The notes beneath the pieces are model-generated. The model did not search any database. It worked only from the letters and a program-made list of their open reading frames with translations, and had not been told where the DNA came from. A DNA stretch of 64,000 nt from Leclercia sp. LSNIH1 (GTDB lineage Bacteria > Pseudomonadota > Gammaproteobacteria > Enterobacterales > Enterobacteriaceae), in assembly GCF_002902985.1 (NCBI RefSeq), contig NZ_CP026171.1, forward strand, positions 62,001 to 126,000, given 5' to 3'. This document shows, piece after piece, positions 33,639 to 42,875 of the stretch. The translations under genes and the position numbers were made by a program. How positions within the stretch are numbered: the stretch's first letter is position 1; each line of letters begins with the position of its first letter.

Positions 33639-33669
33639 CCCATATGGTATAATTGACATACCAAATGGG
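33639..33669 (+). promoter_or_regulatory. Operator-promoter of the Xre-RES pair
   Basis: A 12-bp inverted repeat with one mismatch (CCCATATGGTAT / ATACCAAATGGG, seven-base spacer) covers a TATAAT box (33648-33653). It ends eleven bases before the antitoxin start. This is the expected site for autorepression by the antitoxin or its complex. Confidence 0.8.
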
Positions 33670-33679
33670 AGGGTCGGTT

Positions 33680-34126
33680 ATGACTATGAAAGTTTTTTCT
33701 CCAGATTTATCCAAAATGAACCCGCACGGCTTATGGCAGGTGGTGGGTCTGGATAATGACGGCATTGCGCTGATGGACAAAATTAGCCACGGACTGGAAG
33801 GTAAAGTCGCTCATTCCATTTCTGAATGGGCGAACATCACGCCGTCGGAACTGCGCAAAATGTCCGGCATTCCGAACACCACCTTCAATCGCAGCGTAAA
33901 AGCCCGTTTCACTGCGGATCAGAGCGAACGTCTGGTGCGTATTATTCGCGTCATTGAACGGGCTGTAGAGCTGTTCGAAGGCGACAAAGAGGCAGCACAG
34001 AAATGGATGAACGAGCCAAACCGTGGCTTGAGCTGGAAGACTCCGGCAGATGTTGTCTCTTCGGAAACCGGCGCACTCGAAGTGATGCGCCTGATCACCC
34101 GTATTGAACACGGAGTCTATTCGTGA
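33680..34126 (+). CDS. Xre/MbcA/ParS-type antitoxin
   Basis: A 148-residue antitoxin. The middle carries an Xre-like helix-turn-helix (ITPSELRKMSGIPNTTFNRS) and the C-terminal part the DUF2384 toxin-binding domain (RAVELFEGDKEAAQKWMNEP; NRGLSWKTPADVVSSETGA). I chose the ATG with GGGAGGG upstream rather than an upstream TTG that falls within the operator. It neutralises the RES toxin encoded next, with which it overlaps by four bases (GTGA). Confidence 0.93.
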   Translation: MTMKVFSPDLSKMNPHGLWQVVGLDNDGIALMDKISHGLEGKVAHSISEWANITPSELRKMSGIPNTTFNRSVKARFTADQSERLVRIIRVIERAVELFEGDKEAAQKWMNEPNRGLSWKTPADVVSSETGALEVMRLITRIEHGVYS

Positions 34127-34581
34127 TCCTGTATCGGATGACCAAGACCCGCTATATTACGACTGCATGGTCGGGATTAGGTGCGAAAGAAGCGGGAGGC
34201 CGCTGGAACAGTGTCGGCACAGCACTTGTCTATCTGTCCGAGACGGCCTCTCTGACCATGCTGGAGACGCTGGTGCATATCAATGCCCCGCAGCTTCTGG
34301 ACGCTTACACGCTGCTGAGCATTGATGTCCCGGATGACCAGATCCAGGCCTTTGACTTGAACCTGCTGCCGCCGGGCTGGGCAAGTGAAGATGCGCCCGC
34401 AGAACTTGCCCTGTATGGCGATAACTGGGCTGAAAGTGGCTCTTCTGTTGCCCTGCGTATTCCCAGTGCATTATCTCCGGTGGAGTTTAACTACCTTTTA
34501 AATCCGGCTCATCCGGCGATTTTTGATCTGATGAAAACCGTCCAGAAAATTCCTTACCAGTACGACACACGGCTGAAATAG
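34123..34581 (+). CDS. RES-domain toxin (NAD+ phosphorylase/hydrolase type)
   Basis: A 152-residue RES protein. Conserved family features are the N-terminal Arg/Tyr region (YRMTKTRYITTAWSGLGA), GGRWNSVGTALVYLSE (the Arg and the Tyr/Glu are the active-site candidates), and the Ser-rich SSVALRIPSALSP. Studied RES toxins degrade NAD+ and stop growth. The GTG start overlaps the antitoxin stop. This is a plausible plasmid-retention system. Confidence 0.93.
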   Translation: MILYRMTKTRYITTAWSGLGAKEAGGRWNSVGTALVYLSETASLTMLETLVHINAPQLLDAYTLLSIDVPDDQIQAFDLNLLPPGWASEDAPAELALYGDNWAESGSSVALRIPSALSPVEFNYLLNPAHPAIFDLMKTVQKIPYQYDTRLK

Positions 34582-37542: not shown

Positions 37543-38487
37543 ATGTATATCGAAATAAAAGAAACATTCCTTGAATTACCCTCAGAAATTCAATTTTCTG
37601 AGGCGGCTAACGCTGCCATTCTGACGCAGGATAAATGGGGCGATGTCTGGCAAACACTGAAGACCGATGCGGATCTGAATTATACCGATGCCGGTGAGCC
37701 GGTCAGTCTCGCATCGCGCGTGACGACGGCAACCAGTGCCATTTATCATGCGATTACCGAAGGCTGGACCATGTGCGTCGGCTACAGCGGCGGGAAAGAC
37801 TCCCACTCGCTACTGCACCTGTTCCTCATGGCCCTGATCCGTGCCGTACGGAACGGGTCGAACGTCAGCCAGCACCACTTCATTCAGATCTCCAACACCC
37901 TGATTGAAAACCCTGAGATGCATCATCAGTCCACGCAGGTTCTCAGCCAGCTCCGAGCCTTTATTGCCGAACAGCAACTGCCCGTGACCGTCCTGGTGGC
38001 CCACCCGTCCATGACCCAGAGCTGGGTCGGACGCATTCTGACCGGGCGCGGACTTCCGACCTGGACAAATTCCAATACGCGTCAATGCTCTACAGATCTC
38101 AAACGCTCTCCACTGCGCCAGGCCAAAGCCCGTTATTTAAAAAATGCACCAGCTTCCGTCCGCAACAAAGTGTGCCTGATGCTGGGTTCCCGCGATGATG
38201 AGAGCGCCCGTCGGGCAGGCAACATCCTCAGAATGGGCGGGCAGTCGGACAGCGTCTCGCTCACGGAGCTCGGCGGCGAACTGTACCCGGTGAAAGAGTG
38301 GCGGACACAGGATATCTGGTCATTTCTGATGGCCTGTGGTTCGCTGGCGCGATTTCCGCTGCCAAGCTTTTTGCCGGACAACTTCAGCCTCGCCACGCTT
38401 TACAAAGACGCGACCGGGGAATGTATCTGGACGCCGGAGAAATACACGGCCCGGTCTTCTGCCTGCGGCGCTCGCTATGGATGCTCG
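37543..38487 (+). pseudogene. PAPS-reductase-family gene, 3' end cut by an inserted element
   Basis: The reading frame starts at 37543 and carries the PP-loop SGGKDSHSLLHLF that binds the nucleotide in PAPS reductase/DndC-like enzymes. Family sequence continues through MLGSRDDESARRAGN and ends in the Cys motif SSACGARYGCS. Immediately after it the frame runs into AT-rich unrelated sequence, stopping at 38598. Related proteins normally continue with a second Cys pair. The break coincides with the left end of the recombinase element. A weaker version of the shared promoter (ATATTAG then GATAAT, spacer about 20) lies at 37481-37513. Confidence 0.82.
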
Positions 38488-38509
38488 CTTACTCTTGTTT
38501 TTATGTATT

Positions 38510-38524
38510 TAGAGTTAAACTCTA
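38510..38524. repeat. Palindrome TAGAGTTAAACTCTA near the element's left end
   Basis: Perfect 7-bp arms about one central base, 22 bases inside the presumed left end of the recombinase element. It may be part of a recombinase core or arm site. Confidence 0.5.
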
Positions 38525-38625
38525 CTTTTCTATTTTTAGAATTCAAGCTATTCATCGTAATTGAGAGATATCCTTTTAATGTTCAGCAAGCCTGTTAAAA
38601 GCACTTTATCTGAACCGCGTTTTGC

Positions 38626-39261
38626 CTAAATCCTGCTCAATATATACTCTCCCTGAGTTCTGAAATCCTCAAATTCCCCAATCTTAAAGCATTGATACAT
38701 AGATGATGTCAGATAATGCGCAATCATCTCACCGCCAATATGGATCCGTTCCGGGTGTGAGTATGTCGCCTGTATAGCCCTTTGTTCATTCATCATTACA
38801 GGAATTGTCTGCAACAAATCCCCATCCAGGATTTGGCACTCAGGTTTTACTCCTGTTCCGTATTGTAATTGCTCTGATTCGAAATCATGGACTGAGCGAT
38901 AGGCGAACGAAACGATATTTCCTGTTTCCTCGCAAATTGCGAACTGATAAACACTGGTTGTCACCGTTGAAGAAGAGGGAATTGCATGGTCATGCTTGTA
39001 TTGTTTCCACAGCCTCCTTAGACAGGCCGATGTATGATAATTGAGATTTTGTATACCTGATACGACCATTCTGGTTGATGCTTCAAGCAACCAGGTGTTA
39101 GAAAATCCACCTGCCCCCGTACCTGCTATGATGGTTCTTAGCTGGGGGATGTAACCTGCTTTGGAAACAAAAGATAACGGCTCCCCATTATCGGTGACGG
39201 CAAGGGTATCTGTTACAATCAGTGCTTGTGCTTCGTCTGTATAAAATATCAGTGATGACAT
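38626..39261 (-). CDS. Proteasome/HslV-like N-terminal-nucleophile protein (cargo)
   Basis: A 211-residue protein. I chose the ATG at 39261 because GAGGA lies four bases upstream; an upstream start would add a 19-residue unlike segment. With Met removed, as expected before Ser, the protein begins with Ser1, has Asp17 (IVTDT) and Lys33 (FVSKAGY), the exact spacing of the Thr1/Asp17/Lys33 centre in proteasome beta subunits. Later patterns also fit: a GTGAGGF turn near residue 46, YGTGVKP near 132, and IHIGGEMIAHYL near 174, like the SGG-helix end of the fold. Catalysis by Ser is an inference. The gene stands alone and faces away from the recombinases. Confidence 0.6.
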   Translation of the reverse strand: MSSLIFYTDEAQALIVTDTLAVTDNGEPLSFVSKAGYIPQLRTIIAGTGAGGFSNTWLLEASTRMVVSGIQNLNYHTSACLRRLWKQYKHDHAIPSSSTVTTSVYQFAICEETGNIVSFAYRSVHDFESEQLQYGTGVKPECQILDGDLLQTIPVMMNEQRAIQATYSHPERIHIGGEMIAHYLTSSMYQCFKIGEFEDFRTQGEYILSRI

Positions 39262-39874
39262 ATTTTCCTCATCCAGAAAAGACATTACATGAATCACAGA
39301 ACAGGTCACTACAACCACGTGAAAGGGAGTCAGACCATTTTCCAGAGGTAAATATATTCTTGTGTTTGGACGCGTTGCGGTTCTCTGTAAAAAATATATA
39401 GCACAAACAAAAGTCCCCGCAGGGATAAATATAGTTATATGCGCTTTTTCTGCTGGCTTTTACAATTGAAAGTGACAGGTAAACGAAATGTGTTACAGGT
39501 TTCTTTTGCTTTTCGTTGGGTTCTGTATATGCGAATTTACCCTGTGTGTTATTTTTGCAATGGACTCAGGCTGTATTCAATCAATTAAGGTTTACTTCTG
39601 GCATTAAGATGTATCCGTTGCCTGTTTTTTAAGGGCACGGTTTGTGCCGGGAAATGAAAATCACATCTTAAGTTCTTCACTCAAAGGATTTGTGATGTTT
39701 ATCACGTATGGTCCGGGTAACGTGTTGAGGTCAATGTATTGCATCGTGATGGTGTCGTTACATCTTTTACTTTCCTCCTGATTTGCATATTCACTCCCGG
39801 CAACCTGGTTGTTTGTTTTTTCTTCTTCCGGATTTATAGTGTAGGCATGAGGTGGCGTTTCAGGGCGACAGACT
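39262..39874. other. Non-coding stretch between cargo and recombinase genes
   Basis: About 610 bases, mostly AT-rich. A 77-codon minus-strand frame (39661-39894) overlaps the recombinase start and lacks a ribosome-binding site, so I do not call it. Promoters for both divergent sides should lie here. Confidence 0.5.
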
Positions 39875-41122
39875 GTGAGGATAATCACTAACATTCATGC
39901 GCGTTATGGGCGTGTCAGCAAACTGGATGCAACAGAGCCGAAACTGAAATTTGAACCCGGATTTCTGTATGCTGAAATACCTTATATTAGCGGCATCCAG
40001 AATCGAAAACTGAGCCGATATGTACACTTTTATCTTATGGATAAAGCTATCCTGCAGGCCAGGGATTTAAAGCCTTTAGCCCGGGCATTTTTACGCTGGA
40101 TAAGGTGGCTGGAGGATAACGGACTTGACCCTTTCACCCCGGGAACGTTGAAATACCAAAGCCCTACATATGGCTTCAGGGAGTATCTTCTGGGGGCCGT
40201 AAGGCAGGGGCGCATCGCCTCATCCACCGCGGCGGTGTACATCAGCGTTATCCGACGGTTTTACGTATTTCTGGGCAAGTGTGGTGAGCTGGCTGCCAGC
40301 TCATTTTTTACGTTGGTCGAAAAAGTCGTTGACGGGCGACGCAAGGTGATAAGTTCGGATCTTGCCATCAGGATAACCAGCACAACAAAAAGGACAATCA
40401 ACCCACTGAATGATGCAGAGGTTCATATCCTGGATGAGGCACTGAAATCTGAGTCCGGGTTGTTCAGTTTAATGATTGTGCTGATGAAAAATTGTGGGTT
40501 ACGGCTGGATGAAATGCTGACCCTGCCGTCGTCACTCTTTACTGAAGAGTACCTTGCCAGTGTCCCTGTATCTGAGTTGACCATCAGGGGGCTTCATATT
40601 GGTCCGAGATGCGGAGTTCATACGAAGTTTGGGATGACGCGAGAACTCTTCATCACCAGACGATTGTACGAGCAGGTTCTGGATTATCTGGCGGATGAGG
40701 AGTATGAAAAGAAGATCCAAAAATGGCGTGCACGACAGGGTGGGGAAGGGCGGCACGAGCCTTTATTTTTAATGGCAAACGGGAAACGGATGTCTGAAAA
40801 AGCCTTTTACTCCCGCTGGTACAGTTTTCGCCATCGCCTGGCCCGGTCTGCTCCGGGAAATGTGTTCAGACATAAACCCCATGATTTGCGGGCAACGTTT
40901 GCGACCCATTTTTTACGCTCGGCACTGAGTTGCTATCCCGATCAGGCCGCAAATGCGCTGGGTACAGTAAAATACTGGATGGGCCATAAAAGCGAAAATA
41001 CGACGATGAAATACATCGTCTTTCTTCAGCAAAACCAGATTTCTGATGCAGTCGCCGGGGTCATGGACGCATTGATTGACGGTGCTGCAGGTCGCGATGG
41101 AGCCATATATGAGCCGGAGTGA
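39875..41122 (+). CDS. Tyrosine recombinase, first gene of the mobility module
   Basis: A 415-residue integrase with a complete catalytic set: Arg I in NCGLRLDEML (near residue 210), HDLRATFATHFLR (His-x-x-Arg, near 336), and GHKSENTTMKYI (His and the nucleophilic Tyr, near 370-380). The N-terminal 150 residues form the SAM-like core-binding domain. The start is a GTG. It overlaps the next gene by 14 bases. In Tn554 the equivalent is TnpA; in gamma-mobile-trio elements it is the recombinase member. Confidence 0.9.
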   Translation: MRIITNIHARYGRVSKLDATEPKLKFEPGFLYAEIPYISGIQNRKLSRYVHFYLMDKAILQARDLKPLARAFLRWIRWLEDNGLDPFTPGTLKYQSPTYGFREYLLGAVRQGRIASSTAAVYISVIRRFYVFLGKCGELAASSFFTLVEKVVDGRRKVISSDLAIRITSTTKRTINPLNDAEVHILDEALKSESGLFSLMIVLMKNCGLRLDEMLTLPSSLFTEEYLASVPVSELTIRGLHIGPRCGVHTKFGMTRELFITRRLYEQVLDYLADEEYEKKIQKWRARQGGEGRHEPLFLMANGKRMSEKAFYSRWYSFRHRLARSAPGNVFRHKPHDLRATFATHFLRSALSCYPDQAANALGTVKYWMGHKSENTTMKYIVFLQQNQISDAVAGVMDALIDGAAGRDGAIYEPE

Positions 41123-42875
41123 AACGCAGATAACGTGGATGGCCGAAAATGTGCTGTCATGGGAGACGGTCAGCGGACACATCACTCAGCGGGATCTGAA
41201 CCGATATTATTTACTTGACGTTTATCTTCAGGCTCATTTTTCAGATTATGTGTTGCTCCCCGGATGGTTTAGTGAACATTCGCATCTTGCCCGCCCTGAA
41301 AAACGCGATTTTATTGCCTCTCTGAAACGATTTCTTCTGTCTTACCGTCCCGCCGGAAGGTTAACCATTTTCCGTTATCTCAATATGTTTTTTATATGGC
41401 AGTCAGTCAATCAGTATGACTATGGCACGGCTGAAGGCGTTGAAATGTATATTAAACATCTCATGAACGATATTCGTCGGCGAAAAATTTCAGTCAGGAT
41501 GGCAAGACACTACTTGTCCGTGGTCAACCGGTTTTTGCTTACGGGCGGGCAGATTCAGAGGCGGTATGAATATGAATTCTTACCGAAAGGAACGTATCAG
41601 CAGCAGGGAAGGGATAGCTATACCAGGAATGAACTTTCCGAGATCCTGAGGCAGTTGTCATCCATGAATGAGTTCCTTGCGGGATGTATCCGGGAGCATA
41701 TCGCTAAATCGGAAAAAGGGGTGCGGCATTTCTCACCGTCTTTGCTGGCACCTGTTTATGAAGCGTATTTCCGGTATCCGGGAGAGAACGGGGTCAGCAG
41801 GGCAGAGATCATCATCAGGGACGTTCTGGAAAATTACTTTCTTACTTCTTTTTTTCTGTTCTGTTACCACACATGGGGAAACACCTCTCAGGTTCTGGGT
41901 CTGACGCGGGATGATATACATCTGGATGAAAAGGGTATCAGCACTGATTATGTTTATAAGGGGAGAGCGAATAAGTATATACGTCTGACGATAGGTAAAT
42001 CGGAGTATGTGACCAAACGTGCGGGCTATTACTGGTTTCTGTCTTTTATCAGGCTCAGGGACGACATCGTTAACTATCTGGTTTCCGCAGATAACTTCCC
42101 TCCGGTACAGGCGCTGTTTCTGAGTGAGCCGCAGGTGAAATTCCATAAGCTTTATTCTCTTAATCCCAGTCATCTGACTAAATTTTCTAACTCTGAGGGG
42201 GCGTGGGCCACGATGCGGCAGCTTAATCCCTCGCTTCCATCAATTACCGTTTCTGGCTTGCGCAAAACGTCTGAGCAGTATACGGACAGAACATTAAAGA
42301 ATGGTCTGATTACGGCGGAAAAAGCACAGCATAACTGGGGCACTTACAGGCGGAATTATGCTGCAGGTAACCCACAGGGGGCGAAGGAAAACTTCAGTGC
42401 TGCACTTGATACGCTTATGAATCAGGGGATTGCGACACGTGCGTTATCCGAGCGGGTAAAAGTTGCTGATGAGCTGGGGATCGATCTGCGTGGAAGCGAT
42501 GAGGGTGTGGATCTTTTATTGAATGGCCTGGGATGTCGATCGCAGGAGCCGCCTACAGATATTGAATTGCGCTTTATAAAAAAGCAAAAACGATTTGGCC
42601 GGACACCAAAGGCTTGTGCGGATTTTTCTCATTGTGTCGAATGTTCAAAAAGTTGCGTTGTGGAAACGCTGGAGTCTGTATGGCTCCTGCTGTCATTCAG
42701 GCATGCTATCGAGTATGGAAAACCGTTGTACATCGGTTCGGTCAATGCTGTGGAGCGTTATGAAACGTTACTCCTGAAGATTGATTTACGGCTTGGGCTG
42801 GTAGATGAGGCGATCCTGAAAAAAGCGCGCGTTAAACTTCAGCGAGAAGGTGTGGCTCCGGTATGGCAGATTTGA
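41109..42875 (+). CDS. Recombinase-like protein, second gene of the module
   Basis: A 588-residue protein. A weak tyrosine-recombinase pattern is seen: HTWGNTSQVLGLTRDDI where Arg I would be (no Arg at the key place), SGLRKTSEQY for the His-x-x-Arg box (Ser instead of His) and HNWGTYRRNYAAG near the Tyr. It may therefore be an architectural partner rather than a strand-cleaving enzyme. A Cys-rich stretch (CADFSHCVECSKSC) near residue 510 suggests zinc binding. The ATG with GGAG six bases upstream is chosen. It overlaps both neighbours. Confidence 0.75.
   Translation: MSRSETQITWMAENVLSWETVSGHITQRDLNRYYLLDVYLQAHFSDYVLLPGWFSEHSHLARPEKRDFIASLKRFLLSYRPAGRLTIFRYLNMFFIWQSVNQYDYGTAEGVEMYIKHLMNDIRRRKISVRMARHYLSVVNRFLLTGGQIQRRYEYEFLPKGTYQQQGRDSYTRNELSEILRQLSSMNEFLAGCIREHIAKSEKGVRHFSPSLLAPVYEAYFRYPGENGVSRAEIIIRDVLENYFLTSFFLFCYHTWGNTSQVLGLTRDDIHLDEKGISTDYVYKGRANKYIRLTIGKSEYVTKRAGYYWFLSFIRLRDDIVNYLVSADNFPPVQALFLSEPQVKFHKLYSLNPSHLTKFSNSEGAWATMRQLNPSLPSITVSGLRKTSEQYTDRTLKNGLITAEKAQHNWGTYRRNYAAGNPQGAKENFSAALDTLMNQGIATRALSERVKVADELGIDLRGSDEGVDLLLNGLGCRSQEPPTDIELRFIKKQKRFGRTPKACADFSHCVECSKSCVVETLESVWLLLSFRHAIEYGKPLYIGSVNAVERYETLLLKIDLRLGLVDEAILKKARVKLQREGVAPVWQI

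Follow-up and report, generated by a model that had tools for sequence, protein, structure and literature searches.

A lone proteasome-like protein with a predicted serine nucleophile is carried by several kinds of mobile DNA

In a 64,000-nucleotide stretch of Leclercia sp. LSNIH1 (contig NZ_CP026171.1, positions 62,001 to 126,000; here called the window), a gene on the minus strand encodes a protein that, judged by its predicted fold and its conserved residues, is almost certainly a serine N-terminal-nucleophile (Ntn) hydrolase related to the proteasome. The gene very probably travels as one-gene cargo of several unrelated kinds of mobile element. Taken as a whole, the reading that we favor, namely, a self-standing proteasome-fold serine hydrolase that forms a one-gene mobile module and takes part in conflicts involving phages or other mobile elements, has in our estimate an even chance of being correct. 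The motif, its conservation, the predicted fold, the mobile distribution, and the failure to see a constant partner are supported directly by the analysis.

Conserved residues and start of the gene

A first-pass annotation, made from the sequence alone, had described the product as a lone proteasome-like protein with Ser1/Asp17/Lys33 spacing, carried as cargo by a recombinase element. The three residues of the mature protein, numbered after removal of the start methionine, can be read directly from the window, and the spacing is borne out by the column counts in aligned relatives.

38626..39261, minus strand: proteasome-like Ser-Ntn protein, 211 amino acids, predicted mature N terminus Ser1 (from sequence, alignment, and predicted fold)
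39256..39258, minus strand: codon of the predicted nucleophile Ser1 (precursor Ser2), from sequence; Ser in 112/113 rows, Thr in 1/113
39208..39210, minus strand: codon of Asp17 (precursor Asp18), from sequence; Asp in 113/113
39160..39162, minus strand: codon of Lys33 (precursor Lys34), from sequence; Lys in 113/113

A homologue search of 5.8 billion proteins yielded 252 candidates and 137 relatives at E<=0.01, the best 120 of which were listed. Alignment A2 consists of the window protein and 112 of these 120; the other eight, being fragments, fusions, or near-copies, were dropped. Its nucleophile column (precursor position 2) holds Ser in 112 rows and Thr in one, and Asp18 and Lys34 are constant, as are Gly49 (mature Gly48), Gly176, and Gly177 in precursor numbering (113/113 each). 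The same columns of a distant branch (alignment A6, 45 rows) contain Ser in 44 rows and Thr in one, with Asp and Lys in all 45, and in the IMG/VR loci of that branch all three residues are present in 78 of 78 (80 loci less two partial ones), ten of which have a TTG start. Because these columns are near-invariant across the aligned relatives, the Ser-Asp-Lys spacing is a signature of the family and not a coincidence; the observation is real and beyond chance.

The ATG start of the open reading frame (ORF) at 38626-39261 is preceded by GAGG at -9 to -6. An upstream start at the in-frame GTG at 39318 was rejected, as a longer gene call occurs in only 3 of the 113 aligned rows and conservation starts at the Met that precedes the Ser. 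The start at 39261 therefore stands.

The proteasome-like motif is given as Thr1 or Ser1, Asp17, Lys33, and an oxyanion Gly47 in the accessible part of the 2021 survey of Fuchs, Alva, and Lupas (PMC8665760). The beta subunits of the 20S proteasome and HslV share this layout and the fold predicted here, the constant Gly of our family lying at mature position 48. They differ in that they use Thr1, whereas Ser is found in 112 of 113 rows here, and in that one of their helices is apparently missing from our models. For the yeast proteasome, the part of PMC4792962 available to us describes a triad of Thr1, Lys33, and Asp17, a Thr1Ser mutant that is active at a lower rate, and a second set consisting of Ser129 and Asp166. 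The family keeps the first of these residue sets, with a native Ser nucleophile.

Profile and sequence comparisons gave little else. The window protein has no Pfam match at E<=1, the proteasome profile PF00227 included, and no sequence relative in the PDB (best E, 0.56). Alignment with hhalign to six HslV sequences (6 of 30 loci passed the motif filter) gave a probability of 0.4 and thus no useful profile similarity, and a search of IMG/VR with P0134 as the query gave no relative. PHROG 13702, which is labeled "terminase large subunit," was matched by all 53 scanned members of alignment A1 (best, 5.8e-54). A terminase identity was rejected on the predicted proteasome fold and the size of the family (218 positions); PHROG 13702 looks like the phage version of the proteasome-like family, and its label looks wrong.

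Predicted fold and chemistry

Structure prediction and comparison (Foldseek, VIA) point to a proteasome beta-type fold, with a beta-sheet core shared by the models of two branches; absence of a family from the VIA listing does not exclude it. The proteasome-like Ntn fold that had been proposed is borne out at the level of models, and an unrelated fold did not appear. According to DSSP, both models have two helices followed by one long helix (149-164 and 159-177, respectively) before the last two strands. Helices are predicted at the H1 and H2 places, the one at the H2 place spanning residues 70-91 of the window protein, and neither model has a helix of more than 3 residues at the expected H3 place, as judged by DSSP and not by residue-level superposition. 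The predicted fold, the position of the Ser, and the lone gene together support the proposal of a self-standing Ntn protein with Ser in place of Thr.

Among known structures, Anbu (PDB 5nyw and 5lox) shows 8% identity; our family differs from it in having Ser instead of Thr, in being mobile cargo, and in lacking a Pfam proteasome match. Phage proteins of similar fold are found in BFVD (11 Foldseek matches at E<=1e-3 with 8-18% identity), including one named HslV and one of Pseudomonas phage Noxifer.

In the mechanism that we infer, the start Met would be removed to leave Ser1 as a free nucleophile, Lys33, held by Asp17, would take up its proton, and Gly48 would contribute to the oxyanion hole. 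The enzyme might then cut an amide or peptide bond in one particular protein. Since one canonical helix is apparently missing in the C-terminal half, the protein probably does not form a closed double-ring barrel and may act on a defined substrate, either as a monomer or in a small assembly. Near the positions of Asp166 and Ser169-Gly of the proteasome, the family presumably has its conserved Arg (172) and invariant Gly-Gly (176-177), as placed by motif only.

The recombinase element of the window

The gene lies at the left extremity of an element with mapped ends, divergent from its recombinase, which supports the earlier claim that it is probable mobile cargo. The element encodes a tyrosine recombinase and two partner proteins without a known domain (the trio). 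Its right end falls beyond the window, at G000:C5:138456-138469, some 38 kb from the left end.

38489..38490, no strand: left end of the recombinase-trio element
37543..38598, plus strand: interrupted PAPS-reductase/DndC-like gene; PF01507 above cutoff, DndC models below theirs
39875..41122, plus strand: trio tyrosine recombinase; PF00589, 8.5e-9
41076..42875, plus strand: second trio protein, 599 amino acids as listed; no Pfam match, relatives adjoin trio recombinases in L163 and L164
42863..44980, plus strand: third trio protein, 705 amino acids; no Pfam match, matches in 150 plasmid records
44984..45412, plus strand: small DUF6262-like protein after the trio; DUF6262, 2.4e-5, below cutoff

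The annotated relative of the second trio protein in L038 (loci are cited by number) has 578 amino acids, and the layout of the recombinase and three further proteins is found again in a Vibrio plasmid. The earlier label of gamma-mobile-trio, which we take to mean a tyrosine recombinase with two further conserved proteins, may apply to this element.

The DndC-like neighbor was considered as a functional partner and rejected; it is the interrupted target gene of the element, and the codons of ORF 37543-38598 past about position 38489 belong to the element itself. Comparison of three insertion sites (window, 38489; L038, 20001; L151, about 4090) showed that the element inserts at Gly-Cys-Ser-x-Cys codons in two unrelated genes, the PAPS-reductase/DndC-like gene and ygiQ, which suggests that the target follows a conserved Cys motif.

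We also think it unlikely that the proteasome-like gene is a fixed part of the trio, because tblastn at E<=1e-2 detected no homologue in the trio-type stretches L163 (25 kb), L164 (20 kb), and L165 (11 kb), the last of which matched only two of the three trio proteins. L162 repeats the same element, in a record whose frames look broken throughout, and was not counted as independent. At the right end, different versions of the element have in common a large P-loop NTPase gene (G000:C5:133179-138469; L038, 33806-37081), the match to which is split in the Leclercia genome by about 1.2 kb of other DNA.

Distribution on mobile DNA

The same trio element is present in ygiQ of two Escherichia coli chromosomes, where the DNA of the gene is 94% and 99.5% identical. 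Among 72,556 plasmid records, 141 carry the gene, 133 of them at an identity of at least 99%, and 133 of the 141 are typed as conjugative. A relative is encoded on an IncX7 plasmid from Yersinia ruckeri, and again on two E. coli plasmids related to it (66-68% DNA identity for the latter). In all three it has a MipZ-type gene on one side and a DUF2726 gene on the other, and in two of the three a HEPN/Toprim-associated gene and an AbiEii-type gene are found upstream.

In samples of genomes the gene is sparse. It was found in 4 of 398 genomes of the phylum sample (its own, one copy with stop codons, and two weak distant matches), in 4 of 392 of the family sample (its own, the copy with stop codons, and two more), in 1 of 369 of the class sample (its own), and in 10 of 5426 E. 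coli genomes. The copy in a genome of the same genus (G300:C1:4261497-4262090) is broken by several stop codons.

The close family has relatives in eight IMG/VR loci. In L026, which is the same prophage as genome locus L020, the gene lies on the opposite strand among tail genes, and the tape measure gene in L020 was confirmed by Pfam. By ORF reading, L021 and L022 look alike and L023-L025 look Mu-like, the candidate transposase of L024 having no Pfam match. The distant branch is common in IMG/VR, where it is encoded in 84 of 105 pattern stretches (80 loci kept). Contig ends truncate many of its flanks; the terms "tail," "integrase," and "SRAP-like" are ORF readings unless Pfam is named. Read in this way, a tail-fiber gene lies upstream in 28 of the 80 loci, an integrase gene downstream in 19, and SRAP-like genes occur in 15. 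A BLUF-type gene is found about 330 bp upstream in 29 of the 80 (L071-L150) and was confirmed by Pfam in the one tested.

In an Anaerolineae metagenome-assembled genome (L015), the gene is an integron cassette. The integrase matches IntI4 (PDB 2a3v) at 4.3e-89, and of six attC-like sites one ends 41 bp before the gene and another overlaps its stop codon. Two further loci have likely attC sites: in L011 the core contains the stop codon (seen by eye, missed by the scan), and in L012 there are sites on both sides, a scan hit just past the gene and an upstream one seen by eye only. DNA folding of five stretches gave z scores of -0.95, -2.95, -2.92, -1.38, and -1.84. The background of the scan was 0.07 hits per 10 kb of strand in control stretches. 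Single attC hits away from the gene were scattered over the window, L014, L018 (score 16, 6 kb off), L021, L027, L035 (score up to 12), and L069; as such hits occur at the threshold used, a single one means little, and an integron was called only for L015, with its six-site array beside IntI. No attC-like site adjoins the window gene, the one hit being 853 bp upstream at threshold score.

Neighbors and partners

Neighborhoods of 26 loci were compared by blastp at E<=1e-4 after removal of most, though not all, repeats of one context. Clusters that included frames antisense to the gene itself (9 loci) were ignored as artifacts. Integrases were the neighbor family common to different contexts (L011, L012, L016, and L028); a small lipoprotein-like gene was shared by L024, L025, and L027, and an Xre-like gene by L007 and the window, where it is 4.5 kb away. 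No unfoldase family was common to these neighborhoods, and sparse sharing of this kind fits a one-gene module. HslV and the bacterial proteasome have a linked AAA+ unfoldase, whereas no linked HslU or Mpa was seen here. The Leclercia host does have its own HslV, and a host unfoldase could therefore serve in trans.

At 33653-34581 the window has a RES-domain gene (3.6e-29) together with an upstream gene that resembles its Xre-type antitoxin; in L007, a relative of this upstream gene begins some 360 bp beyond the matched portion of the proteasome-like gene.

Defense genes near the family

We scanned 100 mechanically picked ORFs (at least 100 amino acids) within 5 kb of the gene in 14 loci (L007-L020) with PADLOC at E<=1e-15. 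In L007, DzbA (1.9e-109) and DzbB (1.4e-55) of the Dazbog type immediately precede the gene on its own strand, at a distance of 122 bp. L012 has a UG36 DRT-type reverse transcriptase (3.1e-214), L016 an FRG-domain gene (PDC-S15, 1.5e-57), and L018 a PDC-S01 gene (1.2e-116). Defense-type neighbors are thus present in 4 of the 14 loci, or in 5 when a weaker LmuB-type match in L011 (7.5e-17) is counted. It is from this gene context that the first-pass annotation's suggestion of a possible defense factor draws its support. GajB/RTasHel matches were traced to a UvrD-type helicase in L010, taken to be housekeeping, and left uncounted; a mad3 match (3.2e-48) among the test-scan families listed was not traced to a member. 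The control comprised 126 ORFs from 14 stretches of 10.6 kb at positions that we chose, on contigs of phylum genomes with an HslV-type gene. Here, 12 models (three RtcR, eight E1-E2, and one mad2) each matched one of the 126 proteins, and in our judgment these matches are read as general enzymes. In the Aeromonas locus L012 (6550-9281), the UG36-type reverse transcriptase and an upstream 339-residue gene adjoin the proteasome-like gene.

Discussion

The family would have spread as a one-gene module, most likely owing to a part that its protein plays in conflict with phages or with other mobile elements. For such a role, with counter-defense as the main rival, we see the chances as finely balanced. 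A more specific version, in which a non-barrel weapon or shield with a Ser nucleophile cuts a specific protein in phage or plasmid conflict and moves among integrons, transposon-like elements, plasmids, and prophages, is offered tentatively, at somewhat worse than even chances.

Several observations weigh against the favored reading. The second proteasome set (Ser129/Asp166) has no evident counterparts here, a possible sign of altered chemistry. Nine or ten of the 14 loci have no clear defense neighbor, the sample is small, the control is unmatched for mobile context or taxon, and the results of the test scan are those of 25 listed families out of 50. The window protein itself matches no PADLOC model, and tblastn with the window protein, L026, and P0141 as queries found no match in 50,697 deposited phage records. 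Finally, the distant branch in IMG/VR lies near BLUF and SRAP-like genes and not near known defense genes.

Possibly, the protein is instead an enzyme of counter-defense or of the element's life cycle that cuts a host defense protein, a repressor, or a recombination factor and so helps its carrier to become established. Its place beside a partition-like gene of the MipZ type in the IncX7 plasmid and related plasmids, its position at the extreme end of the trio element, divergent from the recombinase, and its presence in the contigs read as Mu-like (L023-L025, with the candidate transposase in L024) are all in keeping with this. However, an integron cassette lacks any life cycle that such an enzyme could serve, three remote trio-type stretches do without the gene, and the neighbors in L007 are both genes of a Dazbog-type system. 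On balance, we consider this explanation rather unlikely.

Less probable still is a general accessory protease or amidase that benefits the host, for example by clearing damaged proteins, and spreads like other niche genes. Formaldehyde-detoxification genes are annotated in other copies of the trio element, and the accessible part of the 2021 survey suggests such roles for partnerless proteasome homologues (PMC8665760), but the very patchy distribution and the repeated presence in viral contigs speak against it.

A specific protein ligase or transpeptidase similar to connectase, in place of a hydrolase, seems very unlikely. According to the part of PMC8665760 consulted, connectase is a monomeric proteasome-like protein that forms no ring and has a reduced helix set, as seems to be the case here too. 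Connectase, however, lacks H1 and H2 and carries a two-helix insertion, whereas in our models helices are predicted at the H1 and H2 places and there is no such insertion. A catalytically dead scaffold that retains the fold is hardly credible: the accessory proteasome active-site residues are not evident, but few columns of the family vary as little as those of the nucleophile, Asp, Lys, and Gly, and Ser is swapped only for Thr.

Returning to the self-standing hydrolase, we do not claim discovery of the family. The 2021 survey, in its accessible part, describes 22 new proteasome-like subfamilies without known function (PMC8665760), and GPH, DPH, RPC, or another of these could equal ours. Like the window protein, PPH and other subfamilies described there are remote relatives of the proteasome for which no partner is known. 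The phage-borne PPH has about 140 residues and lacks H2, which sets it apart from the 211-residue window protein with its helix at the H2 place. In that part of the survey we found no mention of an integron-cassette habit, linkage to defense genes, or a position in a recombinase element. Likewise, no functional account of the family was found in the literature searched, which included the accessible parts of PMC8665760, PMC4792962, PMC12715929, PMC12259885, and PMC5666114 and did not extend to subscription papers.

In summary, the best-known relatives of the proteasome are ring-forming housekeeping machines, and here we find a single gene with a near-invariant Ser nucleophile. Its several mobile carriers, including an integron cassette, make it a compact and directly testable system. 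If the protein is not protective, its repeated presence in viral contigs still calls for an explanation. The family may represent a new kind of defense or counter-defense enzyme, and if it proves to be protective, the proteasome fold would enter prokaryotic immunity.
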